Assembly: GCA_026874595.1 (NCBI GenBank)
Contig: CM049319.1
Location: forward strand, 2,942,601 to 3,006,600
Direction of reading: 5' to 3'
DNA from: Sipunculus nudus
Lineage: Eukaryota; Annelida; Sipuncula; Golfingiida; Sipunculidae
Length of the DNA stretch: 64,000 bases
Both the position numbers and the translations under genes were made by a program. The notes beneath the pieces were generated by a model. The model worked only from the letters and a program-made list of their open reading frames with translations. It searched no databases and had not been told where the DNA came from. Shown here in pieces: positions 16,874 through 64,000 of the stretch; position 1 is the first letter of the stretch, and every line of letters starts with the position of its first letter.

Positions 16874-17290
16874 TTATTTAAGGTTAAAAAGGAGGTATTT
16901 AGTTCTATGTTTGCATGACGTTGTCAGCTCGTTCCTATTGTTTAGTGAACTCAGATCAGGTCGGCAAATTATGTAGTATTTCTCGGTGGTGCATAAATTA
17001 CATTTTTTTGACGTGTTGAAATAAGCTCTGCATTTAGCCATGATTTTCCATTTGACCGAATAGGGTATGTTTTTTTCTTTCAGAGTCCACACGTACTTGC
17101 TTAGTGTTGTGCTATTTCTGTATTTTTCATTCCTGAAACTACTGATGTGTCCATAGTATCTCGTTTTAAATGCGTTTTCTGTCAGTCCGATATATGTTTC
17201 CACTTGTTTGTTATCTTTTCTGGTAACTGTGGCCTGGTAAATTATGCTTTGAGTAAGGCATCCTTCTTTGATTGGGCATTTTTCGGGTTT
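16874..17290 (-). pseudogene. PLE GIY-YIG endonuclease domain, truncated
   Basis: The open frame is 138 codons plus stop. From its start it reads a CPIKEGC cysteine pair, then SIIYQATVT, then the GIY-YIG-type core YIGLTENAFKTRYYGH, then SSFRNEKYRNSTTLSKYVW, an IPYSVKW strand, and CNLCTTEKYYII before a C-terminal tail. This order matches the PLE endonuclease domain as known: the YIG motif, the conserved Arg in the FKxRY helix and the late TEK Glu are all present. It is open only because the fragment starts after a stop at 17,291; there is no natural start codon, and the polymerase domain is missing. A GTG at 17,201-17,203 gives a shorter apparent start but lies inside the conserved domain. Identification as PLE is by recognised motifs and not by a database search. 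Confidence 0.85.
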
Positions 17291-37298: not shown

Positions 37299-40200
37299 GG
37301 TACTTATTCCATGATCCTACGAAAATCATTAAGGAACTTTCTTTCAGCAAAGAGCATGACAATTTGACACGGTTTGATAAACAGGCCGTTGCTCCAAAAT
37401 ATCACATTGTTTCAACTACCAACATTACTTTTCATAACTAAGGGATCATAGAAAAAAAGAACTGAGATTGTGAAGTAAAATTAAACAATTTATTGTATCC
37501 AAACGTGTCCAAAAATTTGCATAAAATTAAAAAAAAAATCTAAATTATTTTCAATATTGGATATAATTTCTCTTAATGAGCATGTAATTCATCCAAATAC
37601 ATGCATATTTATATCTAACTTATTTAAAAATAAGAGAGGAGTAAAACGGTGCTTATTTCGTTACCAAAGGACTAGTATTAAGGAAGTAACAGTCGATTCT
37701 GTGACCATATCCTGTTCCCTCAGCCGCGAACCTTGCATTTTAACGCGGTATCATAAAAGGGCCATTTCTCTAAAAATCGACATTGTTTCAACTACCAACA
37801 TTAATTTTGATTATTTAGGGACATATGAAAACGATAAAAAAAACAATAGATCATATGGATTTTCTTCGCAATCTGAGCTTATGTTATTGTTTTAAGGTCC
37901 CTAAATTAGAAAATTAACGTCAAAATTTATGGTAAAAAAATACGCACACTTCCAAAAAAATCCAAAATAATTTTGTGAATTGGATAAAACTGCATTTAAT
38001 AAGCAAGTAACACATCCAAATACAAACACAGTTACATCTGTCATGTTCAGGTATAAAAGATAAGTAAAATGGTGTTTATTTTACTATCATTGGGTTAATA
38101 TTAAGGAAGTTAAATTCAATACCCCCTTAACCGATTTCAATCAGTAACAATCTTGGCATTTTGACGCGGTTTGATAAAAAGTCAGCCTTGTTTCAAGTTC
38201 AAACATTCATTATGTCAAACTAGGGACCTCTAGATATACAAAAATTAGTGTCTAGAAAATCTTCCCCTCGAGCGGGGGGGGGGGGGGGGGTGGGGATGTA
38301 TACCCCTAATGGTGTAAAGACTAATGTGATTTGTTGGTTCATTAAAGTCTGGTGTCTGATTTTCATATTTGAGACTAACACCAATATTGCACAGTTTAGG
38401 CATAATCGACCCAACAAGATTTTTTTTCAGATATTTCAACTAAAGTTGTTATTTTGCACCGATATTTGTTTCTGTTATCTTTCTCGAATATCGCGAATTT
38501 GAAACCCTCGCGAACAAAAGATAACCACAGTATTAAGCCTAGTGTAAGTGGTCCATCGCCAGGGTCTCATGTGGAAGATTAATTTTTTTTCAGAAAGACT
38601 CACCTGGAGAGAAGCAGAAGGGAAGTGTAGGAACGAGAGCAAGGACCTCTACAGTAACCTTGACAACCATGGGGTCAAGGACGTTGGTTTGACCGGAGAT
38701 TCGTGGACGGTCTGGACCGGAGCAAGGCGGGAGGACTTTAACACTCCGCGCTGGATCAATGGATCAGACGTTGGTAAGCTTGAGCTTTGTTTCGGGGGGG
38801 GGGGGGGGGGTTAAATCGTTTTGAGCAATATGTATTTGCTTTTATGTCCATGTTTTCCTTAACTTACGGACATTGACTTGACCGCAATGGAAAGGCGCCC
38901 GTAGAAGTGAGGTTGTAGATCTTGGGAAATATATATCCATATATATATATATATATATTTTATATATGCATATGTATGTACGTATCTCGAATTTAAAATT
39001 AGCATAACTGTAAAGTATTGTGTTCCAGACCTGACCATGCTATCTTACTACACCAAAGGTGACGAAACACCCATATGTGGCTATCTCCACACACGGGATA
39101 ATACCCTGGAGCTGCAAAGCTGTGATGTACAGCATATAGGATACCTATGTCAGATACCTGGTGAGCACACTACAATGATGGTAAAGATAAATCAGAAACA
39201 CTAAAATAAGGGTCGATATACACCAGATACCTGATGAGTACACTATAATGATGGTCCATATACATCAGATACCTGGTGAGAACACTATAAGGATGATCAA
39301 TATACATCAGATACCTGTTGAGTACACTACAATGATGGTCAATATACATCAGATGCCTGGTGGGAACATAATAACGATGGTCAATATACATCAGATACCT
39401 GGTGAGTACACTATAATGATGGTCAATATACATCAGATACCTGGTGAAAACACTATAATGATGATCAATATACATCAGATACCTGGTGAGTACACTACAA
39501 TGATTGTCAATATAAATCAGATACCTGGTAAGAACACTATAATGATGATCAATATAGATCAGATACATGCTGAGTACACTACTATGCTGGTCAATATACA
39601 TCAGATACCTGGTGAGTACACTATAATGATGATCAATATATATCAGAAACCTGGTGTAAACACTATAATGATGATCAATATACATCAAAAACCAGGTGAG
39701 TACCCTATAATGATGATCAATAAACATCAGATACCTGGTGTGTACACTGCAATGATGGTCAATATACATCAGATACCTGGTGAGTACACTACAATGGTGG
39801 TCAATATACATCAGAAACCTGGTAAGAACACTATAACGATGGTCAATATACATCAGATACCTGGTGAGTACACTACAATGATGGTCAATAGACATCAGAT
39901 ACCTGGTAATAACACTATAATGATGATCATTATACATCAGATACCTGGTAAGAACACTATAATGATGATCAATATACATCAGAAACCTGGTAAGAACACT
40001 ATAATGATGGTCAATTTACATCAGATACCTGGTGAGAACACTATAATGATGATCAATATACATCAGATACCTGGCGAGAACACTATAATAATTATCAATA
40101 TACATCAGATACCTGGTGTGTACACTACAATGATGGTCACTATACATCAGAAACCTGGTAAGAACACTATAACGATGGTCAATTTACATCAGATACCTAG

Positions 40201-43200
40201 TGTGTACACTACAATGATGATCAATATACGTCAGATACCTGGTGAGAACACTATAACGATGGTCAATATACATGAGATACCTAGTGTGTACATTACAATG
40301 ATGATCAATATACGTCAGATACCTGGTCAGAACACTATAACGATGATCAATGTACATCAGATACCTGGTGAGTACACTACAATGAAGGTCAATATACATC
40401 AGAAACCTGGTAAGAACACTATAACGATGGTCAATATACATCATATACCTAGTGTGTACACTATAATGATGATCAATATACATCAGAAACCTGGTAAGTA
40501 CACTATAATGATGGTCAATATACATCAGATACCTGGTGAGAACACTATAATGATGATCATTATACATCAGATACCTGGTGTGTACACCACAATGATGATC
40601 AATATACATCAGAAACCTGGTAAAAACACTATAACGATGGTCAATATACATGAGATACCTAGTGTGTACACTACAATGATGATCAATATACATCAGATAC
40701 CTGGTGAGAACACTATAATGTGGTTGATCAATATACATCAGATACCTGGTGAGAACACTATAATGATGATCAATAGACATCAGATACCTGGTGAGAATAC
40801 TATAACGATGGTCAATATACATCAGATACCTGGTGTGTACACTACAATGATGATCAAAATACATCAAATATCAGGTGAGAACACTATAATGATCATCAAT
40901 ATACATCAGTTACATGGTGAGTAAACTACAATGATGGTCAATAGACATCAGATACCTGGTGAGAACACTATAACGATGGTCTATATACATCAGATACCTG
41001 GTGAGTACAGTACAATGATAGTCAATATACATCAGATACCTGGTAAGAACACTATAATGATGATCAATATGCATCAGATACCTGGTGAGTACACTACAAT
41101 GATGGTCAATAGACATCAGATACCTGGTAAGAACACTATAATGATGATCAATATACATCAGATACCTATTGTGTACTCTACAATGATGGTCAATATACAT
41201 CAGATACCAGGTGAGAACATTATAATGATGCTCAATATACATCAGATACCTGGTGAGTACACTACAATGATGGTCAATAGATATCAGATACCTGGTTCAA
41301 TCGGGAACACTAAAACGATGGTCAATATACATGAGATACCTAGTGTGTACACTACAATGATGATCAATATACATCAGATACCTGGTGAGAACACTATAAT
41401 GTGGTTGATCAATATACATCAGATACCTGGTGAGAACACTATAATGATGATCAATAGACATCAGATACCTGGTGAGAATACTATAACGATGGTCAATATA
41501 CATCAGATACCTGGTGTGTACACTACAATGATGATCAAAATACATCAAATACCAGGTGAGAACACTATAATGATCATCAATATACATCAGTTACATGGTG
41601 AGTAAACTATAATGATGGTCAATAGACATCAGATACCTGGTGAGAACACTATAACGATGGTCTATATACATCAGATACCTGGTGAGTACAGTACAATGAT
41701 AGTCAATATACATCAGATACCTGGTAAGAACGCTATAATGATGATCAATATGCATCAGATACCTGGTGAGTACACTACAATGATGGTCAATAGACATCAG
41801 ATACCTGGTAAGAACACTATAATGATGATCAATATACATCAGATACCTATTGTGTACTCTACAATGATGGTCAATATACATCAGATACCAGGTGAGAACA
41901 TTATAATGATGCTCAATATACATCAGATACCTGGTGAGTACACTACAATGATGGTCAATAGATATCAGATACCTGGTTCAATCGGGAACACTAAAACGAT
42001 GGTTAATATACATCAGATTCCTGGTGAAAACACTATAATGATGATCAATATACATCAGAAACCTGGTAAGAACACTATAATGATGGTCAATATACATCAG
42101 ATACCTGGTGATAACACTATAATGATGATCAATATACATCAGGTACCTGGTGAGAACACTATAATGATGATCAATATACATCAGATACCTGGTGTGTACA
42201 CTACAATGATGCTCAATATACATCAGAAACCTGGTAAGAACACTATAACGATGGTCAATATACATCAGATACCTAGTCAGAACACTACAATGATAATCAA
42301 TATACATCAGAAACCTGGTAAGAACACTATAACGATGGTCAATTTACATCAGATACCTTATGTGTACACAAGAATGATGGTCAATATACATCAGATACCT
42401 GAGGTGTACACTACAATGATGATCATTGGACATCAGATACCTGGTGAGAATACTATAACGATGGTCAATATACATCAGATATCTGGTGTGTACACTACAA
42501 TGCTGATCAAAATACATCAAATACCAGGTGAGATCACTAAAATGATGATCAATATACATCAGATACATGGTGAGTAAACTACAATGTTGGTCAATAGCCA
42601 TCAGATACCTGGTGAGAACATTATAACGATGGTCTATGTACATCAGATACCTAGTGAGTACACAACAATGATAGTCAATATACATCAGATACCTGGTAAG
42701 AACACTATAATGGTGATAAATATACATCAGATACCTGGTTAGTACACTACAATGATGGTCAATAGACATCAGAGACCTGGTAAGAACACTATAATGATGA
42801 TCAATATACATCAGATACCTAGTGTGTACTCTACAATGATGGTCAATATACATCAGATACCAGGTGAGAACACTATAATGATGCTCAATATACATCAGAT
42901 ACCTGGTGAAAACACTATAATGGTGGTCAATATACATCATATACCTGGTGTAAACACTTTAATGATGATCAATATACATCAGATACCTGGTGAGAACACG
43001 ATAATGATGATCAATATACATCAGATACCTGGAGAGAATACTATAATAATTATCAATATACATCAGATACCTGGTGTGTACACTACAATGATGGTCACTA
43101 TACATCAGAAACCTGGTAAGAACACTATAACGATGTTCAATTTACATCAGATACCTAGTGTGTACACTACAATGATGATCAATATACGTCAGATACCTGG

Positions 43201-46200
43201 TGAGAACACTATAACGATGGTCAATATACATGAGATACCTAGTGTGTACATTACAATGATGATCAATATACGTCAGATACCTGGTCAGAACACTATAACG
43301 ATGATCAATGTACATCAGATACCTGGTGAGTACACTACAATGAAGGTCAATATACATCAGAAACCTGGTAAGAACACTATAACGATGGTCAATATACATC
43401 ATATACCTAGTGTGTACACTATAATGATGATCAATATACATCAGAAACCTGGTAAGTACACTATAATGATGGTCAATATACATCAGATACCTGGTGAGAA
43501 CACTATAATGATGATCATTATACATCAGATACCTGGTGTGTACACCACAATGATGATCAATATGCATCAGAAACCTGGTAAAAACACTATAACGATGGTC
43601 AATATACATGAGATACCTAGTGTGTACACTACAATGATGATCAATATACATCAGTTATCTGGTGAGAACACTATAATGTGGTTGATCAATATGCATCAGA
43701 TACCTGGTGAGAACACTATAATGATGATCAATAGACATCAGATACCTGGTGAGAACACTATAACGATGGTCAATATACATCAGATACCTGGTGTGTACAC
43801 TACAATGATGATCAAAATACATCAAATACCAGGTGAGAACACTATAATGATCATCAATATACATCAGTAACATGGTGAGTAAACTACAATGATGGTCAAT
43901 AGACATCAGATACCTGGTGAGAACACTATAACGATGGTCTATATACATCAGATACCTGGTGAGTACACTACAATGATAGTCAATATACATCAGATACCTG
44001 GTAAGAACACTATAATGATGATCAATATGCATCAGATACCTGGTGAGTACACTACAATGATGGTCAATAGACATCAGATACCTGGTAAGAACACTATAAT
44101 GATGATCAATATACATCAGATTCCTATTGTGTACTCTACAATGATGGTCATTTATACATCAGATACCAGATGAGAACATTATAATGATGCTCAATATACA
44201 TCAGATCCCTTTTGAGTACACTACAATGATGATCAATAGACATCAGATACCTGGTTCAATCGGGAACACTATAACGATGGTTAATATACATCAGATTCCT
44301 GGTGAAAACACCATAATGATGATCAATATACATCAGATACCTGGTGAGTACACTACAATGATAGTCAATATACATCAAAAACCTGGTAAGAACACTATAA
44401 TGATGATCAATATACATCAGATACCTGGTGAGTACACTATAATGATTGTCAATATACACCAGACACCAGGTTAGAACACTATGATGATGATCAATATACA
44501 TCAGATACCTAGTCACAACACTATAATGATGATCAATAGACATCAGATACCTTGTGAGTACACTACAATGATAGTCAATATACATCAGATACCTGGTGAG
44601 AACACTATAATGATGATCAATATAGATCAGACACATGGTGAGTAAACTATAATGATGGTCAATATACATCAGATACCTGGTGAGTACACTTTAATGATGG
44701 TCAATATACATCAGATACCTGGTGAGAACTCTATAATGATGATCAATATAACTCAAATACCTGGTGAGTACACTACAATGATGGTCAATATACATCAGAT
44801 ACCTGGTGTGAACACTATAATGATGATCAATATACATCAGAAACCTGGTAAGAACACTATAATGATGGTCAATGTACATCAGATACCTGGTGAGAACACT
44901 ATAACGATGGTCAATATACCTCAGATACCTGGTGTGTACACTACAATGATCATCAAAATACATCAAATACCAGGTGAGTACACTAAAATGATGGTCAATA
45001 TACATCAGATACCTGGTGTGAACACTACAATGATTATCAATATACATCAGAAACCTGGTGAGAACACTATAATGATGATCAAAAGACATCAGATACCTCG
45101 TGAGAATACTATAACGATGGTCAATATACATCAGATACCTGGTGTGGACACTACAATGATGATCAAAATACATCAAATACCAGGTGAGTACACTATAATG
45201 ATGATCAATATACATCAGATACCTGGTGAGTAAACTACAATGATGGTCGATAGACATCAGATACCTGGTAAGAACACTATAATGATGATCAATATACATC
45301 AGATACCTAGTGTGTACTCTACAATGATGGTCAATATACATCAGATACCAGGGGAGAACACTATAATGATGGTCAATAGACATCAGATACCAGGTGAGAA
45401 CACTATAACTATGGTCAATATACATCAGATACCTGGTGAATACACTACAATGATAGTCAATATACATCAGATACCTTGTAAGAACACTATAATGATGATC
45501 AATATAGATCAGACACATGGTGAGTACACTATAATGATGGTCAATATACATTAGATACCTGGTGAGTACACTATAATGATGGTCAATAGACATCAGATAC
45601 CTCGTAAGAACACTATAATGATGATCAATATACATCAGATATCTGGTGTGTACACTACAATGCTGATCAAAATACATCAAATACCAGGTGAGATCACTAA
45701 AATGATGATCAATATACATCAGATACATGGTGAGTAAACTACAATGATGATCAATATACATCAGATACCTGGTGAGAACATTATAACGATGGTCAATAGA
45801 CATCAGATACCTGGTGTGAACACTATAACGATGTCTATATACATCAGATACCTGGTGAGTACAGTACAATGATAGTCAATATACATCAGATACCTGGTAA
45901 GAACACTATAATGATGATCAATATACATTTGATACCTGGTGAGTACACTACAATGATGGTCAATAGACATCAGATACCTGGTAAGAACACTATAATGATG
46001 ATCAATATAGATCAGACACATGGTGAGTACACTATAATGATGGTCAATATACATCAGATACCTGGTGAGTACACTATAATGATGGTCAATATACATCAGA
46101 TACCTGCTGAGAACTCTATAATGATGATCAATATAACTCAAATACCTGGTGAGTACACTACAATGATGGTCAATATACATCAGATACCTGGTGAGAACAT

Positions 46201-49200
46201 TATAATGATGATCAAAATACATCAAATACCAGGTGAGTACACTAAAATGATGGTCAATATACATCAGATACCTGGTGTGAACACTAAAATGATGATCAAT
46301 ATACATCAGAAACCAGGTGAGAACACTAAAATGATGATCAACAGACATCATATACTTCGTGAGAATACTATAACGATGGTCAATATACATCAGATACCCC
46401 ATGTGTACTCTACAATGTTGGTCAATATACATCAGATACCAGGTGAGAACACTATAATGATGCTCAATATACATCAGATACCTGGTGAAAACACTATAAT
46501 GATGATCAATATACATCATATACCTGTTGAGAACACTTTAATGATGATCAATATACATCAGATACCTAGTGTGTACTCTACAATGATGGTCAATATACAT
46601 CAGATACCAGGTGAGAACACTATAATGATGCTCAATATACATCAGAAACCTGGTGAGAACACTATAATGATGATCAAAAGACATCAGATACCTCGTGAGA
46701 ATACTATAACGATGGTCAATATACATCAGATACCTGGTGTGGACACTACAATGATGATCAAAATACATCAAATACCAGGTGAGTACACTATAATGATGAT
46801 CAATATACATCAGATACCTGGTGAGTAAACTACAATGATGGTCGATAGACATCAGATACCTGGTAAGAACACTATAATGATGATCAATATACATCAGATA
46901 CCTAGTGTGTACTCTACAATGATGGTCAATATACATCAGATACCAGGGGAGAACACTATAATGATGGTCAATAGACATCAGATACCAGGTGAGAACACTA
47001 TAACTATGGTCAATATACATCAGATACCTGGTAAATACACTACAATGATAGTCAATATACATCAGATACCTTGTTAGAACACTATAATGATGATCAATAT
47101 ACATCAGATATCTGGTGTGTACACTACAATGCTGATCAAAATACATCTAATACCAGGTGAGATCACTAAAATGATGATCAATATACATCAGATACATGGT
47201 GAGTAAACTGCAATGATGATCAATATACATCAGATACCTGGTGAGAACATTATAACGATGTTCAATAGACATCAGATACCTGGTGTGAACACTATAACGA
47301 TGGTCTATATACATCAGATACATGGTGAGTAAACTACAATGATGATCAATATACATCAGATACCTGGTGAGAACATTATAACGATGGTCAATAGACATCA
47401 GATACCTGGTGTGAACACTATAACGATGGTCTATATACATCAGATACCTGGTGAGTACAGTACAATGATAGTCAATATACATCAGATACCTGGTAAGAAC
47501 ACTATAATTATGATCAATATACATTTGATACCTGGTGAGTACACTACAATGATGGTCAATAGACATCAGATACCTGGTAAGAACACTATAATGATAATCA
47601 ATATACAACAGATACCTAGTGTGTACTCTACATTGATGGTCATTATACATCAGATACCTAGTCACAACACTATAATGATGATCAATAGACATCAGATACC
47701 TGGTGAGTACACTACAATGATAGTCAATATACATCAGATACCTTGTAAGAACACTATAATGATGATCAATATAGATCAGACACATGGTGAGTACACTATA
47801 ATGATGGTCAATATACATCAGATACCTGGTGAGTACACTATAATGATGGTCAATATACATCAGATACCTGCTGAGAACTCTATAATGATGATCAATATAA
47901 CTCAAATACCTGGTGAGTACACTACAATGATGGTCAATATACATCAGATACCTGGTGAGAACATTATAACGATGTTCAATAGACATCAGATACCTGGTGT
48001 GAACACTATAACGATGGTCTATATACATCAGATACATGGTGAGTAAACTACAATGATGATCAATATACATCAGATACCTGGTGAGAACATTATAACGATG
48101 GTCAATAGACATCAGATACCTGGTGTGAACACTATAACGATGGTCTATATACATCAGATACCTGGTGAGTACAGTACAATGATAGTCAATATACATCAGA
48201 TACCTGGTAAGAACACTATAATTATGATCAATATACATTTGATACCTGGTGAGTACACTACAATGATGGTCAATAGACATCAGATACCTGGTAAGAACAC
48301 TATAATGATAATCAATATACAACAGATACCTAGTGTGTACTCTACATTGATGGTCATTATACATCAGATACCTAGTCACAACACTATAATGATGATCAAT
48401 AGACATCAGATACCTGGTGAGTACACTACAATGATAGTCAATATACATCAGATACCTTGTAAGAACACTATAATGATGATCAATATAGATCAGACACATG
48501 GTGAGTACACTATAATGATGGTCAATATACATCAGATACCTGGTGAGTACACTATAATGATGGTCAATATACATCAGATACCTGCTGAGAACTCTATAAT
48601 GATGATCAATATAACTCAAATACCTGGTGAGTACACTACAATGATGGTCAATATACATCAGATACCTGGTGAGAACACTATAATGATGATCAATATACAT
48701 AAGAACCCTGGTGAGAACACTATAATGATGGTCAATATACATCAGATACCTGGTGAGAACACTATAACGATGGTCAATATACCTCAGATACCTGGTGTGT
48801 ACACTACAGTGATGATCAAAATACATCAAATACCAGGTGAGTACACTAAAATGATGGTCAATATACATCAGATACCTGGTGTGAACACTAAAATGATGAT
48901 CAATATACATCAGAAACCAGGTGAGAACACTAAAATGATGATCAACAGACATCATATACTTCGTGAGAATACTATAACGATGGTCAATATACATCAGATA
49001 CCCCATGTGTACTCTACAATGATGGTCAATATACATCAGATACCAGGTGAGAACACTATAATGATGCTCAATATACATCAGATACCTGGTGAAAACACTA
49101 TAATGATGATCAATATACATCATATACCTGGTGAGAACACTTTAATGATGATCAATATACATCAGATACCTAGTGTGTACTCTACAATGATGGTCAATAT

Positions 49201-52200
49201 ACATCAGATACCAGGTGAGAACACTATAATGATGCTCAATATACATCAGAAACCTGGTGAGAACACTATAATGATGATCAAAAGACATCAGATACCTCGT
49301 GAGAATACTATAACGATGGTCAATATACATCAGATACCTGGTGTGGACACTACAATGATGATCAAAATACATCAAATACCAGGTGAGTACACTATAATGA
49401 TGATCAATATACATCAGATACCTGGTGAGTAAACTACAATGATGGTCGATAGACATCAGATACCTGGTAAGAACACTATAATGATGATCAATATACATCA
49501 GATACCTAGTGTGTACTCTACAATGATGGTCAATATACATCAGATACCAGGGGAGAACACTATAATGATGGTCAATAGACATCAGATACCAGGTGAGAAC
49601 ACTATAACTATGGTCAATATACATCAGATACCTGGTGAATACACTACAATGATAGTCAATATACATCAGATACCTTGTTAGAACACTATAATGATGATCA
49701 ATATACATCAGATATCTGGTGTGTACACTACAATGCTGATCAAAATACATCTAATACCAGGTGAGATCACTAAAATGATGATCAATATACATCAGATACA
49801 TGGTGAGTAAACTACAATGATGATCAATATACATCAGATACCTGGTGAGAGCATTATAACGATGTTCAATAGACATCAGATACCTGGTGTGAACACTATA
49901 ACCATGGTCTATATACATCAGATACCTGGTGAGTACAGTACAATGATAGTCAATATACATCAGATACCTGGTAAGAACACTATAATGATGATCAATATAC
50001 ATTTGATACCTGGTGAGTACACTACAATGATGGTCAATAGACATCAGATACCTGGTAAGAACACTATAATGATGATCAATATACATCAGATACCTAGTGT
50101 GTACTCTACATTGATGGTCATTATACATCAGATACCTAGTCACAACACTATAATGATGATCAATAGACATCAGATACCTGGTGAGTACACTACAATGATA
50201 GTCAATATACATCAGATACCTTGTAAGAACACTATAATGATGATCAATATAGATCAGACACATGGTGAGTACACTATAATGATGGTCAATATACATCAGA
50301 TACCTGGTGAGTACACTATAATGATGGTCAATATACATCAGATACCTGCTGAGAACTCTATAATGATGATCAATATAACTCAAATACCTGGTGAGTACAC
50401 TACAATGATGGTCAATATACATCAGATACCTGGTGAGAACACTATAATGATGATCAATATACATAAGAAACCTGGTGAGAACACTATAATGATGGTCAAT
50501 ATACATCAGATACCTGGTGAGAACACTATAACGATGGTCAATATACCTCAGATACCTGGTGTGTACACTACAATGATGATCAAAATACATCAAATACCAG
50601 GTGAGTACACTAAAATGATGGTCAATATACATCAGATACCTGGTGTGAACACTAAAATGATGATCAATATACATCAGAAACCAGGTGAGAACACTAAAAT
50701 GATGATCAACAGACATCGTATACTTCGTGAGAATACTATAACGATGGTCAATATACATCAGATACCTAGTGTGTACTCTACAATGATGGTCAATATACAT
50801 CAGATACCAGGTGAGAACACTATAATGATGCTCAATATACATCAGATACCTGGTGAAAACACTATAATGATGATCAATATACATCATATACCTGGTGAGA
50901 ACACTTTAATGATGATCAATATACATCAGATACCTAGTGTGTACTCTACAATGATGGTCAATATACATCAGATACCAGGTGAGAACACTATAATGATGCT
51001 CCATATACATCAGATACCTGGTGAAAACACTATAATGATGTTCAATATACATCATATATCTGGTGAGAACACTTTAATGATGATCAATATACATCAGATA
51101 CCTGGTGAGTACACTATAATGATGATCAATATACATAAGATACGTGGTGTGAACACTATAATTGTGGTCAATATACAACAGATTCATGGTGAGTACACTA
51201 CAATGATGGTCAATATACATCAGATACCTGGTGACAACACTATAATGATGATCAATATACATCAGACACCAGGTGAGAACACTATGATGATGCTCATTAT
51301 ACATCAGATACCTAGTCACAACACTATAATGATGATCAATAGACATCAGATACCTGGTGAGTACACTACAATGATAGTCAATATACATCAGATACCTTGT
51401 AAGAACACTATAATGATGATCAATATAGATCAGACACATGGTGAGTACACTATAATGATGGTCAATATACATCAGATACCTGGTGAGTACACTATAATGA
51501 TGGTCAATATACATCAGATACCTTGTGAGAACTCTATAACGATGATCAATATAACTCAAATACCTGGTGAGTACACTACAATGATGGTCAATATACATCA
51601 GATACCTGGTGAGAACACTATAATGATGATCAATATACATAAGAAACCTGGTAAGAACACTATAATGATGGTCAATATACATCAGATACCTGGTGAGAAC
51701 ACTATAACGATGGTCAATATACCTCAGATACCTGGTGTGTACACTACAATCATGTTCAAAATACATCAAATACCCGGTGAGTACACTAAAATGATGGTCA
51801 ATATACATCGGATACCTGGTGTGAACACTAAAATGATGATCAATATACATCAGAAACCTGATGAGAACACTAAAATGATGATCAACAGACATCATATACT
51901 TCGTGAGAATACTATAACGATGGTCAATATACATCAGATTCCTGGTGTGTACACTACAATGATGATCAATATACATTAAATACCAGGTGAGAACACTATA
52001 ATGATAATCAATATACATCAGATACATGGTGAGTAAACTACAATGATGGTCAATAGACATCAGATACCTTGTGAGAACACTATAACGATGGTCAATATAC
52101 ATCAGATACCTGGTGACAACACTATAATGATGATCAATATACATCAGACACCAGGTGAGAACACTATGATGATGCTCATTATACATCAGATACCTAGTCA

Positions 52201-55200
52201 CAACACTATAATGATGATCAATAGACATCAGATACCTGGTGAGTACACTACAATGATAGTCAATATACATCAGATACCTTGTAAGAACACTATAATGATG
52301 ATCAATATAGATCAGACACATGGTGAGTACACTATAATGATGGTCAAAATACATCAGATACCTGGTGAGTACACTATAATGATGGTCAATATACATCAGA
52401 TACCTTGTGAGAACTCTATAATGATGATCAATATAACTCAAATACCTGGTGAGTACACTACAATGATGGTCAATATACATCAGATACCTGGTGAGAACAC
52501 TATAATGATGATCAATATACATAAGAAACCTGGTAAGAACACTATAATGATGGTCAATATACATCAGATACCTGGTGAGAACACTATAACGATGGTCAAT
52601 ATACCACAGATACCTGGTGTGTACACTACTATCATGTTCAAAATACATCAAATACCCGGTGAGTACACTAAAATGATGGTCAATATACATCGGATACCTG
52701 GTGTGAACACTAAAATGATGATCAATATACATCAGAAACCTGATGAGAACACTAAAATGATGATCAACAGACATCATATACTTCGTGAGAATACTATAAC
52801 GATGGTCAATATACATCAGATTCCTGGTGTGTACACTACAATGATGATCAATATACATTAAATACCAGGTGAGAACACTATAATGATGATCAATATACAT
52901 CAGATACATGGTGAGTAAACTACAATGATGGTCAATAGACATCAGATACCTTGTGAGAACACTATAACGATGGTCTATATACATCAGATACATGGTGAGT
53001 ACAGTACAATGATAGTCAATATACTTCAGATACCTGGTAAGAACACTATAATGATGATCAATATACATCAGATACCTGGTGAGTACACTACAATGATGGT
53101 CAATAGACATCAGATACCTCGTAAGAACACTAAAATGATGATCAATATACATCAGATACCTATTGTGTACTCTACAATGATGGTCAATATACATCAGATA
53201 CCAGGTGAGAACATTATCATGATGCTCAATATACATCAGATACCTGGTGAGTACACTACAATGATGGTCAATAGACATCAGATACCTGGTTCAATCGAGA
53301 ACACTATAACGATGGTCAATATACATCAGATACCTGGTGAAAACACCATAATGATGATCAATATACATCAGATACCTGGTGAGTACACTACAATGATAGT
53401 CAATATACATCAGATACCTGGTAAGAAAACTATAATGATGATCAATATACATCTGATACCTGGTGAGTACACTACAATGATGGTCAATAGACATCAGATA
53501 CCTGGTAAGAACACTATAATGATGATCAATATACATCAGATACCTAGTGTGTACTCTACAATGATGGTCAATATACATCAGATACCAGGTGAGAACACTA
53601 TAATGATGCTCAATATACATCAGATACCTGGTGAAAACACTATAATGATGATCAATATACATCATATACCTGGTGAGAACACTTTAATGATGATCAATAT
53701 ACATCAGATACCTGGTGAGTACACTATAATGATGATCAATATACATAAGATACGTGGTGTGAACACTATAATGGTGGTCAATATACAACAGATTCATGGT
53801 GAGTACACTACAATGATGGTCAATATACATCAGATACCTGGTGACAACACTATAATGATGATCAATATACATCAGACACCAGGTGAGAACACTATGATGA
53901 TGCTCATTATACATCAGATACCTAGTCACAACACTATAATGATGATCAATAGACATCAGATACCTGGTGAGTACACTACAATGATAGTCAATATACATCA
54001 GATACCTTGTAAGAACACTATAATGATGATCAATATAGATCAGACACATGGTGAGTACACTATAATGATGGTCAATATACATCAGATACCTGGTGAGTAC
54101 ACTATAATGATGGTCAATATACATCAGATACCTGCTGAGAACTCTATAATGATGATCAATATAACTCAAATACCTGGTGAGTACACTACAATGATGGTCA
54201 ATATACATCAGATACCTGGTGAGAACACTATAATGATGATCAATATACATAAGAACCCTGGTGAGAACACTATAATGATGGTCAATATACATCAGATACC
54301 TGGTGAGAACACTATAACGATGGTCAATATACCTCAGATACCTGGTGTGTACACTACAGTGATGATCAAAATACATCAAATACCAGGTGAGTACACTAAA
54401 ATGATGGTCAATATTCATCAGAAACCTGGTGAGAACACTAAAATGATGATCAACAGACATCATATACTTCGTGAGAATACTATAACGATGGTCAATATAC
54501 ATCAGATACCTGGTGTGTACACTACAATGATGATCAATATACATTAAATACCAGGTGAGAACACTATAATGATGATCAATATACATCAGATACATGGTGA
54601 GTAAACTACAATGATGGTCAATAGACATCAGATACCTTGTGAGAACACTATAATGATGCTCAATATACATCAGATACCTGGTGAGTACACTACAATGATG
54701 GTCAATAGACATCAGATACCTGGTTCAATCGAGAACACTATAACGATGGTCAATATACATCAGATACCTGGTGAAAATACCATAATGATGATCAATATAC
54801 ATCAGATACCTGGTGAGTACACTACAATGATAGTCAATATACATCAGATACCTGGTAAGAAAACTATAATGATGATCAATATACATCTGATACCTGGTGA
54901 GTACACAACAATGATGGTCAATAGACATCAGATACCTGGTAAGAACACTATAATGATGATCAATATACATCAGATACCTAGTGTGTACTCTACAATGATG
55001 GTCAATATACATCAGATACCAGGTGAGAACACTATAATGATGCTCAATATACATCAGATACCTGGTGAAAACACTATAATGATGATCAATATACATCATA
55101 TACCTGGTGAGAACACTTTAATGATGATCAATATACATCAGATACCTGGTGAGTACACTATAATGATGATCAATATACATAAGATACGTGGTGTGAACAC

Positions 55201-58200
55201 TATAATGGTGGTCAATATACAACAGATTCATGGTGAGTACACTACAATGATGGTCAATATACATCAGATACCTGGTGACAACACTATAATGATGATCAAT
55301 ATACATCAGACACCAGGTGAGAACACTATGATGATGCTCATTATACATCAGATACCTAGTCACAACACTATAATGATGATCAATAGACATCAGATACCTG
55401 GTGAGTACACTACAATGATAGTCAATATACATCAGATACCTTGTAAGAACACTATAATGATGATCAATATAGATCAGACACATGGTGAGTACACTATAAT
55501 GATGGTCAATATACATCAGATACCTGGTGAGTACACTATAATGATGGTCAATATACATCAGATACCTGCTGAGAACTCTATAAAGATGATCAATATAACT
55601 CAAATACCTGGTGAGTACACTACAATGATGGTCAATATACATCAGATACCTGGTGAGAACACTATAATGATGATCAATATACATAAGAAACCTGGTAAGA
55701 ACACTATAATGATGGTCAATATACATCAGATACCTGGTGAGAACACTATAACTATGGTCAATATACCTCAGATACCTGGTGTGTACACTACAATGATGAT
55801 CAAAATACATCAAATACCAGGTGAATACACTAAAATGATGGTCAATATACATCAGATACCTGGTGTGAACACTAAAATGATGATCAATATACATCAGAAA
55901 CCAGGTGAGAACACTAAAATGATGATCAACAGACATCATATACTTCGTGAGAATACTCTAACGATGGTCAATATACATCAGATACCTGGTGTGTACACTA
56001 CAATGATGATCAATATACATTAAATACCAGGTGAGAACACTATAATGATGATCAATATACATCAGATACATGGTGAGTAAACTACAATGATGGTCAATAG
56101 ACATCAGATACCTTGTGAGAACACTATAACGATGGTCTATATACATCAGATACCTGGTGAGTACAGTACAATGATAGTCAATATACATCAGATACCTGGT
56201 AAGAACACTATAATGATGATCAATATACATTTGATACCTGGTGAGTACACTACAATGATGGTCAATAGACATCAGATACCTGGTAAGAACACTATAATGA
56301 TGATCAATATACATCAGATACCTAGTGTGTACTCTACATTGATGGTCAATATAGATCAGATACCAGGTGAGAACACTATAATGATGGTCAACAGACATCA
56401 GATACCTGGTGAGAACACTATAACGATGGTCAATATACATCAGATACCTGGTGAGTACACTATAATGATGATCAATATACATCAGATACCTGGTGAATAC
56501 ACTACAATGATAGTCAATATCCATCAGATACCTGGTAAGAACACTATAATGATGATCAATATAAATCAGATACCTGGTGAGTACACAACAATTATAGTCA
56601 ATGTACATCAGATACCTGGTAAGAACACTATAATGATGATCAATATACATCAGATACCTGGTGAGTAAACTACAATGATTGTCAATATACATCAGACACC
56701 AGGTGAGAACACTATGATGATGATCAATATACATAAGATACCTGGTCACAACACTATAATGATGATCAATAGACATCAGAAACCTGGTGGGTACACTACA
56801 ATGTGGTCAATATACATCAGATACCTGGTAAGAACACTATAATGAAGATCAATATAGATCAGACACATGGTGAGTACACTATAATGATGGTCAATAAACA
56901 TCAGATACCTGGTGAGTACACTATAATGATGGTCAATATAGATGAGATACCTGGTGAGAACACTATAATGATGATCAATATACATCGTATACCTGGTAAG
57001 TACACTATAATGATGATCAATATACATCAGATACCTGGTGACAACACTATAATGATGATCAATATACATCAGATACCTAATTAGAACACTATAATTATGA
57101 TCAATATACATCAGATACCTGGTGAGAACACTATAATGATGGGCAGTATACATCAGATACCTAATTAGAACACTATAATGATGATCAATATACATCATAT
57201 ACCTGGTAAGTACACTATAATGATGATCAATATACATCAGATACCTGGTGAGAACACTACAATGATGGGCAGTATACATCAGATACCTAATTAGAACACT
57301 ATAATGATGATCAATATACATCAGATACCTGGTGAGAACACTATAATGATGGGCAGTATACATCAGATACCTAATTAGAACACTATAATGATGATCAATA
57401 TACATCAGATGCCTGGCGAGTACACTAAAATGATGGTCAATATACATAAGATACCTGGTGAGTACACTACAATGATGGTCAATATACATCAGATACCTGG
57501 TGTGAACACTATAATGATGATCAATATACATCAGATACCTGGTGAGTACACTACAATGATGTTCAATATACATCAGTTACCTGGTGAGAACACTATTATG
57601 ATGATCCATATACATCAGATACCTGGTGAGTACACTATAATGATGGTCAATATACATCAGATACCTTGTGAGAACTCTATAATGATGATCAATATACCTC
57701 AAATACCTGGTGAGTACACTACAATGATGGTCAATATACATCAGATACCTAGTGAGTACACTACAATGATGATCAATATACAGCAGATACCTGGTGAGAA
57801 CACTATAATGATGATCAATATACATCGTTCTATGTTCTAATATAATGCTCTTATTTTTAATTATTATCCTCTTGATCACAATGTGACAGGCAAGGACACG
57901 GACGATATTTATATTTTTATTTCAGCCTCTAGAACATAAAACTTCCCCGCCTGTCTTATAGAATCTTTCCCAGTGTTTAATATTCGCCGCACAATCTTGA
58001 TGTTTACAGCAATGACCAATATCAAGTAATAAATGTATATTTTCATGATGTAGGCAATGTCTGTCCAGAAACCAATTTTCGTTAACCCTCCCATTAAAAT
58101 CATGCACCTATACAGACCGGTCACCTTAAGTCAGATTTAATCCAGTGTGATTTTTTTTCCCAGATTTTTCGCAGCAGAAAATCTGATTAGGAAGATATAA

Positions 58201-58265: not shown

Positions 58266-61200
58266 GGGGGGGGGGGGCATTTATTCAACTAACATAGTAG
58301 ATTTTATTATGAGCTACCATCTGAGTAGGTCGATGATCTTGAATCTTAGTTCAAGATGTACCGAATATACAACCTCCATCTGTAGTGACATGAGGTACCG
58401 AATATACAACCTCCATCTGTAGTGACATGATGTTCCGAATATACAACCTCCATCTGTAGTGACATGAGGTAACGAATATACAACCTCCATCTGTAGTGAC
58501 ATGAGGTACCGAATATGCAACCTCAATCTGTAGTGACATGATGTACCGAATATACAACCTCCATCTGTAGTGACATGATGTACCGAATATACAACCTCCA
58601 TCTGTAGTGACATGAGGTTCCGAATATACAACCTCCATCTGTAGTGACATGAGGTACCGAATATACAACCTCCATCTGTAGTGACATGAGGTACCGAATA
58701 TACAACCTCCATCTGTAGTGACATGATGTACCGAATATGCAACCTCCATCTGTAGTGACATGATGTACCGAATATGCAACCTCCATCTGTAGTGACATGA
58801 TGTACCGAATATGCAACCTCCATCTGTAGTGACATGAGGTACCGAATATACAACCTCCATCTGTAGTGACATGAGGTACCGAATATACAACCTCCATCTG
58901 TAGTGACATGATGTACCGAATATACAACCTCCATCTGTAGTGACATGATGTACCGAATATACAACCTCCATCTGTAGTGACATGATGTACCGAATATACA
59001 ACCTCCATCTGTAGTGACATGATGTACCGAATATACAACCTCCATCTGTAGTGACATGATGTACCGAATATACAACCTCCATCTGTAGTGACATGATGTA
59101 CCGAATATACAACCTCCATCTGTAGTGACATGATGTACCGAATATACAACTTCCATCTGTAGTGACATGAGGTACCGAATATAGAACCTCCATCTGTAGT
59201 GACATGAGGTACCGAATATAGAACCTCCATCTGTAGTGACATGAGGTACCGAATATAGAACCTCCATCTGTAGTGACATGAGGTACCGAATATACAACCT
59301 CCATCTGTAGTGACATGATGTACCGAATATACAACCTCCATCTGTAGTGACATGATGTACCGAATATACAACCTCCATCTGTAGTGACATGATGTACCGA
59401 ATATACAACCTCTATCTGTAGTGACATGATGTACCGAATATACAACTTCCATCTGTAGTGACATGAGGTACCGAATATACAACCTCCATCTGTAGTGACA
59501 TGAGGTACCGAATATAGAACCTCCATCTGTAGTGACATGAGGAACCGAATATACAACCTCCATCTGTAGTGACATGAGGTACCGAATATAGAACCTCCAT
59601 CTGTAGTGACATGATGTACCGAATATACAACCTCCATCTGTAGTGGCATGATGTACCGAATAGACAACCTCCATCTGTAGTGACATGAGGTACCGAATAA
59701 GCAACCTCCATCTGTAGTGACATGAGGTACCGAATATACAACCTCCATCTGTAGTGACATGATGTACCGAATATACAACCTCCATCTGTAGTGACATGAT
59801 GTACCGAATATACAACCTCCATCTGTAGTGACATGATGTACCGAATATACAACCTCCATCTGTAGTGACATGATGTACCGAATATACAACCTCCATCTGT
59901 AGTGACATGATGTACCGAATATACAACCTCCATCTGTAGTGACATGATGTACCGAATACACAACCTCCATCTGTAGTGACATGATGTACCGAATACACAA
60001 CCTCCATCTGTAGTGACATGAGGTACCGAATATACAACCTCCATCTGTAGTGACATGAGGTACCGAATATACAACCTCCATCTGTAGTGACATGATGTAC
60101 CGAATATACAACCTCCATCTGTAGTGACATGATGTACCGAATATACAACCTCCATCTGTAGTGACATGATGTACCGAATATACAACCTCCATCTGTAGTG
60201 ACATGATGTACCGAATATACAACCTCCATCTGTAGTGACATGATGTACCGAATATACAACCTCCATCTGTAGTGACATGAGGTACCGAATATACAGCCTC
60301 CATCTGTAGTGACATGATGTACCGAATATACAACCTCCATCTGTAGTGACATGATGTACCGAATATACAACCTCCATCTGTAGTGACATGATGTACCGAA
60401 TATACAACCTCTATCTGTAGTGACATGATGTACCGAATATACAACTTCCATCTGTAGTGACATGAGGTACCGAATATACAACCTCCATCTGTAGTGACAT
60501 GAGGTACCGAATATACAACCTCCATCTGTAGTGACATGAGGAACCGAATATACAACCTCCATCTGTAGTGACATGAGGTACCGAATATAGAACCTCCATC
60601 TGTAGTGACATGATGTACCGAATATACAACCTCCATCTGTAGTGGCATGATGTACCGAATAGACAACCTCCATCTGTAGTGACATGAGGTACCGAATAAG
60701 CAACCTCCATCTGTAGTGACATGAGGTACCGAATATACAACCTCCATCTGTAGTGACATGATGTACCGAATATACAACCTCCATCTGTAGTGACATGATG
60801 TACCGAATATACAACCTCCATCTGTAGTGACATGATGTACCGAATATACAACCTCCATCTGTAGTGACATGATGTACCGAATATACAACCTCCATCTGTA
60901 GTGACATGATGTACCGAATATACAACCTCCATCTGTAGTGACATGATGTACCGAATATACAACCTCCATCTGTAGTGACATGATGTACCGAATATACAAC
61001 CTCCATCTGTAGTGACATGATGTACCGAATACACAACCTCCATCTGTAGTGACATGAGGTACCGAATATACAACCTCCATCTGTAGTGACATGAGGTACC
61101 GAATATACAACCTCCATCTGTAGTGACATGATGTACCGAATATACAACCTCCATCTGTAGTGACATGATGTACCGAATATACAACCTCCATCTGTAGTGA

Positions 61201-63458
61201 CATGATGTACCGAATATACAACCTCCATCTGTAGTGACATGAGGTACCGAATATACAACCTCCATCTGTAGTGACATGAGGTACCGAATATACAGCCTCC
61301 ATCTGTAGTGATATGATGTACCGAATATACAACCTCCATCTGTAGTGACATGAGGTAACGAATATACAACCTCCATCTGTAGTGACATGAGGTACCGAAT
61401 ATACAACCTCCATCTGTAGTGACATGAGGTAGCACAAAGGAAGGGTGTATTCTAAAACAATAATAATAGCCTAATATCTGCCATGAAAAATGTTCTCATT
61501 ATAATTCACAGCAATTCTGACTTTAAGACTGTGATTAGTATAGTATAGGCGGGCCCCTGGAACCAACCAATGAACGATGACCCCCTAATGAACTCATATT
61601 GAGAACGATTTCGTTATTTCACAGATTTTAATAGTGAATAAAACATATATGTGGAGGTTTATAATTCGATATCACCCACGATGTTGGGCTCTCTCCTACT
61701 GTACACTTTGCCTCTCTGTTACATTTCGTAGGGTTATTTGGTATACATTTGCCTCGCGTCCATGACCAATACCCATTCATAGCTGGGTGGAGAGAGTGCC
61801 CTCAGGTGGTCATAGCGAGGAAGGTGTGAACGAGACGCGAACCCACGAACTTGTGAACCCAAATCCAGGGCCTTATTAAACCATTACGCCAACTACCCAT
61901 CACAAATGTTGGTAAACTGCCTTAACAAGAATCAAGAACACTATAATTTTAATCAAAATGTTAACTTGAAATTCATGTTTTATTTTAAGGATGTACCCTT
62001 TGTCCCAGAGGCCTGTACGATTATCAGTGTTTCTCCTTGGACAACAATTGTTACGTGAACTTCTGTGGTATAGACAACTGGTATTCGGCCAGAGACACCT
62101 GTGCTCGTCGCGGATGGACGCTGACATTGATAAAATCTAAGACCCTTATTAGCAGTGTGGCGGGGAAACTGTACAAATCCACGGACAACAAACCGTGCAA
62201 GACCTTCTGGGTCGGCTTCAGGACGGCCGACTGGTTTGATGGTGAGGAATTGTATTTCCAGCTACATGAGACAGATAATAGAAAGGAACGAATTAAGCCG
62301 AACTGGATTAGGCATATGTGAATATTATAATGCTCACGTGGTTGTCCTTTCTAAGTAACATGTCTCATTTTGTAATAATTAAGGTTTGAATGTTTTAAAG
62401 ATAATTTATGATAGGTATTCCTAAGATTTCAATTTTTATATGTGTTTGACTTAAAATTACTTACTTTTCACAAAGTAACATAATTTGATCACTTAAAACT
62501 TTTACAGAGGTTGTTCACAAACGTTAAATGACGCTTGCATATTATTGCTCGTTCTCTGATATATGAAATGTATATATGTAAAAAATATACGACATATATA
62601 TTACATATGTAAATTTGCCAACATAGGCTGTCTAGAAATTAAAGGCTTCTTCCTTTGGAACATTAATCTTTTTTCTGTGATTTACATTTACAGTCATGCG
62701 TTTCGCTTTAATTAAGATTCCATACTTTATTCATCTGGTTTGTTAAACAGTCCAGCACAGTCACTGGGGTTTGAATCTTTCACCGTCCTTATACATTTGA
62801 CAATCCAATGTGAATAAATTAACTACTAGAGAAGAACACTTGCGTTTATTCAACAGCAAAAACCCAATATGACGGCCATCTTGACCCATCTCCGTTCCCC
62901 GTTCCAATCATACCTCAGTACAACTATATCACAAATCACACATCTATAATCTAAAGATCCTAGATAACATTCTTACAGGCCAGACACCTGTCATGAATGA
63001 GGACAGTATTTATCCTAGAGCTCTAAAGTTGTTATATTAATTCAAATACGTTGAACGTGAACACAACGGTGAAAAATGTACTTTTGTGTGTAACAAAATG
63101 TATGATTATAATATACAAATTACAATGCTTAATGCAATTAAAATTCCCTTGTGTAGAAGTGGATGTTGATCGAATAACATATCAAATTATTGATGATCTG
63201 TGACTTAACGACCAAGAAAGAGGTTAATAACAAAAGTTTACAAAATAGTGTGCAATGGCTGACAGAGAGCGGTTTTCAGCTCACCTGACTATAAGTCATC
63301 TGAGCTCTAGTAATGGTCCTTTGTTCGTCAGGCCATCCTTTAACAAGACAAACTGTTGGACTTGCAAATCCAAAATTCTACATGCAAATAAATGTACCCA
63401 CGTTCTCTTAGGAAACGGAAAACTGGGTCACTGTGACTTCTTTCTTTTGAGAAATTAA
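31642..63458 (+). CDS. Secreted protein with two C-type-lectin-like domains (five exons)
   Basis: Joined exons 31642-31711, 38594-38773, 39029-39160, 61990-62241 and 63280-63458 give 813 bases, i.e. 270 residues plus stop. Every intron is phase 1 with GT donors and AG acceptors. Exon 1 encodes a signal peptide. Exons 2-3 form a first C-type-lectin-like fold (LTWREAEGKC helix, WTGARR, PRWING, then CGYL...LQSCD and GYLC). Exons 4-5 form a second one (YSARDTCARRGW, FWVGF, DWF, then CW...C and a final C). Neither domain shows a clear EPN or WND sugar/calcium motif, so classical calcium-dependent sugar binding is doubtful. The protein is predicted to be secreted; a recognition or immune role would be typical of mollusc lectin expansions but is inference. 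A further small exon in intron 1 cannot be excluded. The splice model is by eye. Confidence 0.8.
31712..35260 (+). other. Intron 1, left part: short dispersed repeats
   Basis: Degenerate repeats of the AGGTCA type (GGTCAAAGGCCAAGGTCAC and variants, 32,570-32,880) lie beside 32.2-32.4 kb sequence with a GCGCCACCTGCAT segment. At 33,600-34,150 there are about four diverged units carrying TGGCGCCACCTAC and TTTGCACAGTTAATGTCTC, related to the tandem repeat at 1-1260. No further lectin exon was recognised. Confidence 0.55.
35272..35722 (+). repeat. ~45-bp minisatellite in intron 1
   Basis: About ten imperfect units built on GAAATCTCCTTTGAAATG, then TTAAACTAGGTCATGGTGAA, then CTATATT. Units vary by substitutions and small deletions. 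Confidence 0.8.
35837..38290. mobile_element. Foldback element with ~1.2-kb inverted arms
   Basis: It starts with C15 (35,837-35,851) and ends with G18 (38,273-38,290). Moving inwards, the left side reads CCCTAG, then ACTTGAAACAA, then TATCAAACCGCGTCAAA (near 35,970), and the right side reads the reverse complements, for example TTTGACGCGGTTTGATA near 38,159. Each arm is made of about three diverged ~250-300-bp direct repeats. In the centre a second inverted repeat, 36,985-37,102, starts and ends with CGGGGCTCCTTATA and its complement. The frames 35,823-36,275, 35,972-36,214 (minus) and 37,557-37,895 share peptides such as DIVSTTNI only because the DNA repeats. Class inferred as foldback-like. 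Confidence 0.8.
37258..37297. repeat. TA microsatellite within the foldback element
   Basis: About 20 TA dinucleotides in the right inner part of the foldback element. Confidence 0.9.
38594..38773 (+). CDS. Lectin-like gene exon 2: N-terminal half of first CTLD
   Basis: The acceptor is a T-rich tract ending in CAG. In the phase set by exon 1 it reads ERLTWREAEGKCRNESKD, then LYSNLDNHGVKDVGL, then SWTVWTGARREDF and PRWINGSDV, ending at donor G|GTAAGC. The first helix with its Cys, the WTGA strand (equivalent to WIGL) and the W-I-N-G stretch place it as the first half of a C-type-lectin-like domain. The domain begins directly at the helix, so it is a short form lacking the usual N-terminal strand and Cys pair. 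Confidence 0.85.
38774..39028 (+). other. Intron 2 with G17 tract and TA run
   Basis: 255 bases. G17 (38,794-38,810) lies 20 bases after the donor, and a TA run is at about 38,938-38,959. The acceptor is TGTTCCAG. Confidence 0.8.
39029..39160 (+). CDS. Lectin-like gene exon 3: C-terminal half of first CTLD
   Basis: It reads DLTMLSYYTKGDETPICGYL, then HTRDNTLELQSCDVQHIGYLC and QIP. The three Cys fit the C-terminal disulphides of a C-type-lectin-like domain. It ends at CCTG|GTGAGC. The last ~11 exon bases (TCAGATACCTG) and the donor are the sequence repeated hundreds of times in the following intron. Reading on without splicing meets an in-frame TAA at 39,202-39,204. Confidence 0.85.
40719..42000 (+). 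repeat. Higher-order repeat of 681 bp
   Basis: Rare marker variants recur at a fixed offset. AATGTGGTTGATC (a +3 unit) is at 40,717 and again 681 bases on; GGTTCAATCGGGAAC (a +6 unit) also recurs 681 bases apart (near 41,294 and 41,975). 681 equals sixteen 42-bp units plus 9, exactly accounted for by these two insertions. A third copy of the first marker lies at about 43,675. Confidence 0.85.
45800..51000 (+). repeat. Higher-order repeats of 714 and 2604 bp
   Basis: The rare variant CAGATACCCCATGTGT occurs at about 46,391 and 48,995, 2604 bases apart (62 units). The rare variant ATATACAACAGATACC recurs 714 bases apart (17 units) near 47,600 and 48,315. These show recent segmental duplication of blocks within the array. 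Confidence 0.8.
51200..56030 (+). repeat. Higher-order repeats of 882, 1728 and 1434 bp
   Basis: The variant ACTATGATGATGCTCAT occurs at about 51,281, 52,163, 53,891 and 55,325. Spacings are 882 (21 units), 1728 (41 units plus 6) and 1434 (34 units plus 6). The extra 6 bases come from the GGTTCAATCGAGAAC unit present once in each of the two longer blocks. Confidence 0.8.
57833..58345 (+). other. Spacer between the two arrays, with TA run and G14
   Basis: About 500 bases of non-repetitive intron, including a TA run (about 58,209-58,261) directly followed by G14 (58,264-58,277). No exon was recognised. Confidence 0.7.
58350..61432 (+). repeat. 37-bp minisatellite, about 83 units
   Basis: The unit reads ACCGAATATACAACCTCCAT, then CTGTAGTGACATGAGGT. 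Its main variation is GAGGTACC versus GATGTACC. A block of 27 units (999 bp) is duplicated: the rare variant AGTGGCATGATG at 59,642 recurs at 60,641. The period is not a multiple of three and the unit lacks minus-strand stops, so all three minus frames are open (up to 1028 codons), with a 37-residue repeat containing SLQMEVVYS and HVTTDGG. These frames are repeat artefacts. Confidence 0.95.
61433..61989 (+). other. Intron 3, right end
   Basis: Non-repetitive sequence up to the acceptor of exon 4 (TTTTATTTTAAG). A second pyrimidine-rich stretch ends in TTTCGTAG at about 61,731, but no lectin-like frame follows. Confidence 0.6.
61990..62241 (+). CDS. Lectin-like gene exon 4: N-terminal half of second CTLD
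   Basis: In phase with exon 3 it reads GCTLCPRGLYDYQCFSLDNN, then CYVNFCGIDNWYSARDTCAR, then RGWTLTLIKSK, and later CKTFWVGFRTADWFD, ending at donor G|GTGAGG. The CP-G-L-Y start, the WYSARDTC helix and the FWVGF strand give the first half of a C-type-lectin-like domain. This domain has the extra N-terminal Cys absent from the first. If the donor is not used, the frame runs 26 further codons to a TGA at 62,319-62,321, a possible truncated form. Confidence 0.85.
62242..63279 (+). other. Intron 4
   Basis: 1038 bases of AT-rich sequence from GTGAGG to GGTTTTCAG. No further feature was recognised. Confidence 0.7.
63280..63458 (+). CDS. Lectin-like gene exon 5: C-terminal half of second CTLD and stop
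   Basis: In the phase set by exon 4 it reads AHLTISHLSSSNGPLFVRPS, then FNKTNCWTCKSKI, then LHANKCTHVLLGNGKLGHCD and FFLLRN before TAA at 63,456-63,458. The spacing of the last Cys residues mirrors exon 3 (C...C...C near the end), which supports the exon. The ATG at 63,255 lies in the intron, so it is not a start in this model. The match to the lectin fold is weaker than in exon 3, so this exon is the least certain. Confidence 0.7.
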
Positions 63459-64000
63459 GAAAAACATTCGTTTTCAAGTAAAACATATTTTTCATTTAAA
63501 AACTGTGCACTAAAAAATCACTAGTGTTAATGTATTCCTGTTTAATATAACCATTCCTACATATATTTCCTATTGACAACCCAGAAAGTAGATCAATGTT
63601 GCATCAATTGTTAAAGTTATAGGCTCAAATATAATGCAATTAGTATAAAAAATCAGGAAATATGTTTGCTCCCATTACAAGATAATTGTTGAAGCTAGAG
63701 ACTTTTTTTAACTAAGGATATATCTTTATTTAATCAAGATGTAAATTGTATAATAGAAATCAGTTCAGACCTAATCAGACTCGCATTATTGTAAAAACAG
63801 TACCATAAATTTGGCCGAACTGTCACCAAGGTACATTTTGTTCTTATAAACACTATTTATTTAACTTTCACAGTATTTATAAATAAGGATTTAAGCTTTT
63901 AAAATCTTAAGTTTGAAAGTTAGAGATTAAAAATTGGGCTTGAAATTGAATTTTCATTTTGAGGCCCTTTTGTTTCGTTTTGCATTGTAAATCCCAAGGC
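63459..64000 (+). other. 3' untranslated and downstream sequence
   Basis: No canonical AATAAA was seen close to the stop. A variant AATATA occurs at 63,544-63,549, about 86 bases after it. The rest is AT-rich without recognised features. Confidence 0.4.

Follow-up and report, generated by a model that had tools for sequence, protein, structure and literature searches.

A 42-bp minisatellite apparently grown from an exon–intron junction in a C-type lectin gene of Sipunculus nudus

In Sipunculus nudus, the third intron of gene A, which encodes C-type lectin domains, carries a minisatellite with a 42-bp unit and about 443 copies, a length taken from one assembly. Comparisons of its units with the adjacent exon and across the genome support the view that this array grew out of the junction between exon 3 and the intron of the same gene, and that it occurs in no gene other than A and one paralogue (gene B). 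The window, that is, the whole stretch of 64,000 nucleotides that was analysed, lies on contig C14, and the genome searched comprised 1.43 Gb in 153 contigs.

With respect to the gene itself, the peptide encoded by exons 2–4 scored 33.9 bits with the Pfam profile Lectin_C, above the curated cut-off of 22.6, which places gene A among the C-type lectin domain genes; its second lectin domain scored 23.2 bits. Exons 2–5 form one open frame with phase 1 joins in both genes A and B (dN/dS 0.31, dS 0.17), and in gene A exon 3 would join exon 4 as G/GA TGT, the frame continuing through exon 5 (Table 1). Exon 2 differs from that of gene B by eight substitutions in 60 codons. At the site of B's exon 5 donor, gene A reads GGAAGG, with no GT, and a GTAAGA is found 15 bases further on with the phase kept; with this donor GT lost, gene A is possibly not entirely intact. 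Intron 3 starts at 39,161 and ends before 61,990, and its 22.8 kb include 18.6 kb of 42-bp array and 3.1 kb of a second, 37-bp array. Since intron 3 of gene B measures 1.9 kb, the length of this intron in gene A is due to its arrays. The C-type lectin family is large in this genome (L011–L038), with clusters on contig C12 at approximately 19–21 and 34.6–34.8 Mb.

Table 1. Features of gene A and of its third intron (window coordinates unless stated otherwise).
Feature	Position	Strand	Remarks
Exon 2	38594..38773	+	Open frame, splice sites read directly; phase 1 at both ends from the frame
Exon 3	39029..39160	+	Closes the first lectin domain (...GYLCQIP); phase 1
Junction unit (first repeat copy)	39150..39184	+	Donor side together with 11 bases of exon 3
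Authentic 5' splice site GTGAGC	39161..39166	+	Predicted from frame and homology; GTGAGT in paralogue B
42-bp junction-derived minisatellite	39186..57826	+	~443 units; TRF and unit parse
TAA in the exon 3 frame	39202..39204	+	Met on readthrough into the array
37-bp minisatellite, 83 copies	58355..61431	+	Second minisatellite of intron 3; not splice-site-derived
Exon 4	61990..62241	+	First part of the second lectin domain; both ends in phase 1
Exon 5	L039:1311-1500		Beyond the window

An earlier note on this DNA had described a 42-base repeat over about 18.7 kb after exon 3, with all copies in one orientation and frame and each carrying about 11 exon bases plus the donor. In line with this, TRF returned 442.7 copies of a 42-bp unit between 39,197 and 57,826, and a unit parse gave 443 units, with starts from 39,186 to 57,781 and the junction unit not counted. 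The stretch across the junction (39,150–39,184) agreed with the array unit in 33 of its 35 bases, and the next best ungapped match to this 35-mer on the plus strand of the window reached 21 of 35. The copies lie on the same strand and, as 42 bases make 14 codons, indel-free units retain the exon phase. Next to the junction lies a degenerate remnant of a unit (39,186), followed by one that has lost the GT (39,221). Between 39,263 and 57,822, 202 of the 441 units are distinct, and their sequences suggest that blocks within the array were probably duplicated. The higher-order structure is modest, with unit identity peaking at lags of 62, 70 and 75 units (0.87–0.88, compared with a mean of 0.86).

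Genome-wide, an exact search with a 30-base pattern containing two free positions found 45 matches, 44 in gene A and one at the junction of gene B (control, 0). A 45-base pattern with up to three mismatches allowed found 163, of which 161 were in the window and two in L007 (reversed control, 0); all 163 lay at the two paralogous junctions. The unit was thus not found at unrelated loci of the genome, where a dispersed satellite family would be expected and where the earlier note had placed the observation that would speak against its proposal. Within the window, a profile search for weak units elsewhere gave a best E of 1.8. A run of 13 exact bases near exon 4 (61,935–61,947), considered as a relict unit, was attributed to chance, given that the aligned stretch of gene B is less unit-like and that another 13-base match occurs at 26,492.

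Gene B lies 183 kb from gene A, is collinear with it and has the same exons 2–5, with intron 3 at the same position and in the same phase. Its array contains about 13–14 units (12.8 copies by TRF; 14 in a manual count that takes in the junction unit and some irregular copies, the starts having been placed manually with a pattern that itself detected 13 of them), so that the paralogues differ in repeat number, ~443 in A and 13–14 in B, in this one assembly. The 42-mer at B's junction matches, letter for letter, the unit at 39,601 in gene A. The last B unit resembles an A unit at 0.88 and its closest fellow B unit at 0.81, a weak hint that several units were already present at the split of A and B, weak because A supplies far more units to match.

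The direction of change could be read from more distant relatives. A protein search with exon 3 gave 33 matches, which, with the three weakest left out, correspond to 30 loci (A, B and 28 distant paralogues). A tandem repeat with a period of at least 10 starting near the exon end was present in none of the 28 distant paralogues, and none had a unit match within 1.5 kb; the same profile gave 20 matches in the A locus and seven in the B locus. Two of the 28 (L012 and L013) read TGTCAGATTCC, the CQIP codons, at the exon end, and the bases common to exon 3 and the unit encode this same CQIP end of the lectin domain. Because the CQIP end is present in distant paralogues devoid of the array, the exon is the older and the array the derived element. 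The proposal of the earlier note that the minisatellite was born by duplication of the splice junction thus gains support from the junction match, the privacy of the unit and the array-less paralogues. The reverse order, in which a satellite arrived at the junction and gave the exon its end, would also account for the 11 bases common to exon and unit, but it is hardly credible with the CQIP end in two distant paralogues without an array and with the unit nowhere else in the genome.

Both arrays end in ...CAATATACATC and then diverge, from which it follows that the founding duplication probably brought that point of the intron and the exon together at a TC common to both. The founding step would have been a tandem duplication of a 42-bp segment across the exon 3 donor (11 exon and 31 intron bases), and the route we infer is, probably, either slippage or an unequal exchange that involved a pair of TC dinucleotides. 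This duplication would predate the split of the lectin genes A and B and would have been followed by a short array in B (~13–14 units) and by neutral minisatellite growth to ~443 units in A. We consider it likely that the junction segment was duplicated before the split and that the array then grew neutrally in A with its donors as passengers.

Regarding the donors carried by the units, GT is kept in 408 of the 440 indel-free units. When scored with a human donor matrix and with the human 5' end of U1, 153 of these 408 units exceeded the authentic CTG/GTGAGC by matrix and 219 of 408 had a U1 duplex energy at least equal to that of the authentic donor. The earlier note had pointed to many copies with GTGAGT, which has one more match to U1 snRNA than the authentic GTGAGC. 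The commonest array donors are CTGGTGAGT (74) and CTGGTGAGA (65). Sites scoring at least as high as the authentic donor by matrix numbered 153 on the plus strand of the array (8.2/kb) and none on its minus strand, compared with 0.07/kb (plus) and 0.22/kb (minus) in window positions 1–39,100 plus 61,441–64,000, and with 0.17/kb after mononucleotide shuffling of the array sequence (50 shuffles). Two features of a donor-copying VNTR are present, namely the putative authentic donor within the start of the array and units carrying donors in sense orientation.

Arrays of this kind are known, and the earlier note was mistaken in regarding none as described, since those of 6-16/IFI6 and ABCA7 precede the present one. 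The minisatellite of the human 6-16/IFI6 (G1P3) gene, as Turri, Cuin and Porter reportedly found in 1995, gives multiple splice donors. It consists of ~26 units of 12 bp. Like the array studied here, it is a splice-donor minisatellite within one gene; however, its units are far fewer and shorter, and their usage is seen in its transcripts, two downstream units being described as donors (PMC4526556). For ABCA7, the published account describes a 25-bp VNTR of ~12 to 427 units in intron 18 that opens with the two bases of the exon 18 donor, the use of the donor one unit downstream in ~2% of transcripts independently of VNTR length, and more exon 19 skipping and lower expression with a longer VNTR (PMC5954066). 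The array of gene A is similar in that it is intronic, has its beginning at the GT donor of the adjoining exon and reaches hundreds of units. This contrasts with differences in the unit itself, which in ABCA7 starts at the GT and, at 25 bp, shifts the frame when a decoy is used, whereas here it carries 11 exon bases and, at 42 bp, is in phase. Moreover, the ABCA7 VNTR is G+C-rich and resides in a human non-lectin gene, and its polymorphism and splicing effects were measured.

Two further comparisons concern tandem duplication at exon–intron boundaries. Human paralogues are reported to contain internal tandem repeats, some of them at such boundaries, with an average of four 30-bp units (PMC2812944); as with genes A and B, these are recent paralogues differing in minisatellite length, but the repeats described yield exon elongation or new introns and are small, unlike ~443 × 42 bp. 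Tandem genomic duplication of AGGT is described as a route to new introns (PMC3443670) and likewise involves a tandemly duplicated donor-like segment, although there an exon segment is duplicated and the intron is new, whereas here an old intron has only grown. A new intron bounded by duplicated AGGT was not found, B having an intron at the same position and in the same phase. Among the literature matches listed, there was no paper on gene A or on a donor array outside human. What is new is therefore not the kind but the contrast between sister genes, the in-phase 42-bp unit and the setting, and the array is probably an extreme member of the known donor-VNTR kind that arose by largely passive expansion.

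As for splicing, the authentic donor, which lies nearest to the genuine acceptor of exon 3, would probably remain the main donor, and a few exon-near units may serve as low-level donors. In gene A, the TAA at 39,202 lies in frame, so that readthrough to any decoy is predicted to produce a truncated, decay-prone transcript; decoy use would therefore end either in decay or in a product with one lectin domain. In gene B, no stop interrupts the frame over four added units, of which the second and fourth have donors that read CTG/GTGAGT like B's own; donors 14, 28, 42 and 56 codons further on would lengthen the protein by inserting as many residues in frame. Skipping of exon 4 would preserve the frame, as its phase is 1 at both ends, and, by analogy with the length effect on ABCA7 exon 19, the array may weakly bind U1 or reduce exon 4 inclusion.

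It is conceivable, albeit with less than even chances, that exon-near donors are used as alternative exon ends, giving isoforms longer by 14 residues per unit in B and stop-containing, unproductive transcripts in A, with repeat number tuning expression. The exon phase of indel-free unit donors, the open frame of B with its two matching donors, the ABCA7 donor used one repeat downstream in ~2% of transcripts (PMC5954066) and the two downstream IFI6 units reported as donors (PMC4526556) are consistent with this. In gene A, however, the closest decoys are degenerate, GT-less or below the authentic donor in score, and the first to exceed it by matrix belongs to the unit at 39,389, whose donor at 39,402 would define a 373-nt exon; decoy use in ABCA7 is, furthermore, reported as independent of VNTR length (PMC5954066).

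We regard as improbable a further-reaching version in which the copy number of the junction minisatellite acts as an evolvable rheostat, with steps of 14 residues in B and, in A, hundreds of U1-binding decoys that together with the stop just past the junction cut productive splicing or alter exon 4 inclusion, decoys near the exon being weeded out. GT was missing in three of the first five units compared with 30 of the 438 later ones (Fisher p 0.0034, with the cut set post hoc); p was 0.004 for the first ten units and 0.05 for the first twenty, and three losses in five units occur at two other places of the array as well. This early loss of GT fits a weeding-out of decoys close to the exon, or else the ordinary decay of an array at its edge.

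Still less probable is selection of the copies as a U1 array, in which they would recruit U1 and either strengthen exon 3 definition or block premature polyadenylation. The 219 units whose pairing with U1 equals or exceeds that of the authentic donor would be compatible with it, as would the reported enhancement of a human PAH exon by U1 binding 3' of the natural donor (PMC5933811), but the donor columns are the least conserved of the unit. Of 42 windows compared along the unit, the one covering the nine donor columns varied most (mean entropy of 0.68 vs 0.41 elsewhere, in 202 distinct units). Relative to the inferred ancestral unit, substitutions occurred at a rate of 0.21 in the seven columns that flank the GT within the donor, 0.055 in the GT itself and 0.082 across the remaining 33 columns. 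GT was retained rather better than the majority of dinucleotides, ranking 9th of 42 in 440 units and 14th in 201 distinct units, which counts to some degree against the passenger reading. The mean effect of donor changes was slightly milder than expected (–1.71 vs –1.86), a direction for which no significance is claimed because units are not independent. Similarly, the 18.7-kb array contains two AATAAA and four ATTAAA, compared with 71 and 44, respectively, in the 41.7 kb of the window outside both arrays, which leaves little for a polyadenylation shield to protect, and the intron to be shielded owes its length to the arrays (22.8 kb vs 1.9 kb in B).

Intron 3 also grew an array unrelated to splice sites, which counts against selected donors. 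This 37-bp minisatellite has 83 copies and is 97% uniform, for which reason it is perhaps younger than the 42-bp array; with up to three mismatches, all 83 genome matches of its unit fall inside the window, and gene B has at the corresponding place one degenerate stretch and no tandem repeat. The variable donor columns, the two AATAAA and this unrelated second array thus give no support to the U1 sink or polyadenylation shield suggested in the earlier note, and the donor copies are probably passengers rather than selected sites. Translation of the 42-bp array into 14-residue repeats was rejected, since open stretches, of up to 722 codons in one plus frame, follow from a unit length divisible by three and that frame contains 119 stops (115 in the best antisense frame).

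Several additional repeats were noted. By eye, the 37-bp unit contains an acceptor-like CCTCCATCTGTAG. The string GATGTACC, common to the start of exon 4 and the 37-bp unit, was taken as chance, the matching stretch of gene B lying mid-intron. Tandem repeats at window positions 1–1244 (period 280) and 33720–34008 (127 bp) carry GGCGCCACC motifs and are possibly parts of a dispersed element; the period-280 repeat has blastn relatives at two places in the paralogue region. A 197-bp unit is repeated five times at 5848–6826 (94% matches). On the minus strand, a 138-codon open frame at 16874–17290 resembles part of a mobile-element endonuclease and gave no Pfam match above the cut-off.

Taken as a donor-derived VNTR, the array of gene A is the third case after the two human genes found in the literature, one of them linked to Alzheimer risk, and it is a case with a known polarity (exon first) and with short and giant versions in sister genes of one genome. 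The A/B pair thereby amounts to a natural experiment in how large a number of decoy donors can accumulate in an intron before splicing suffers.
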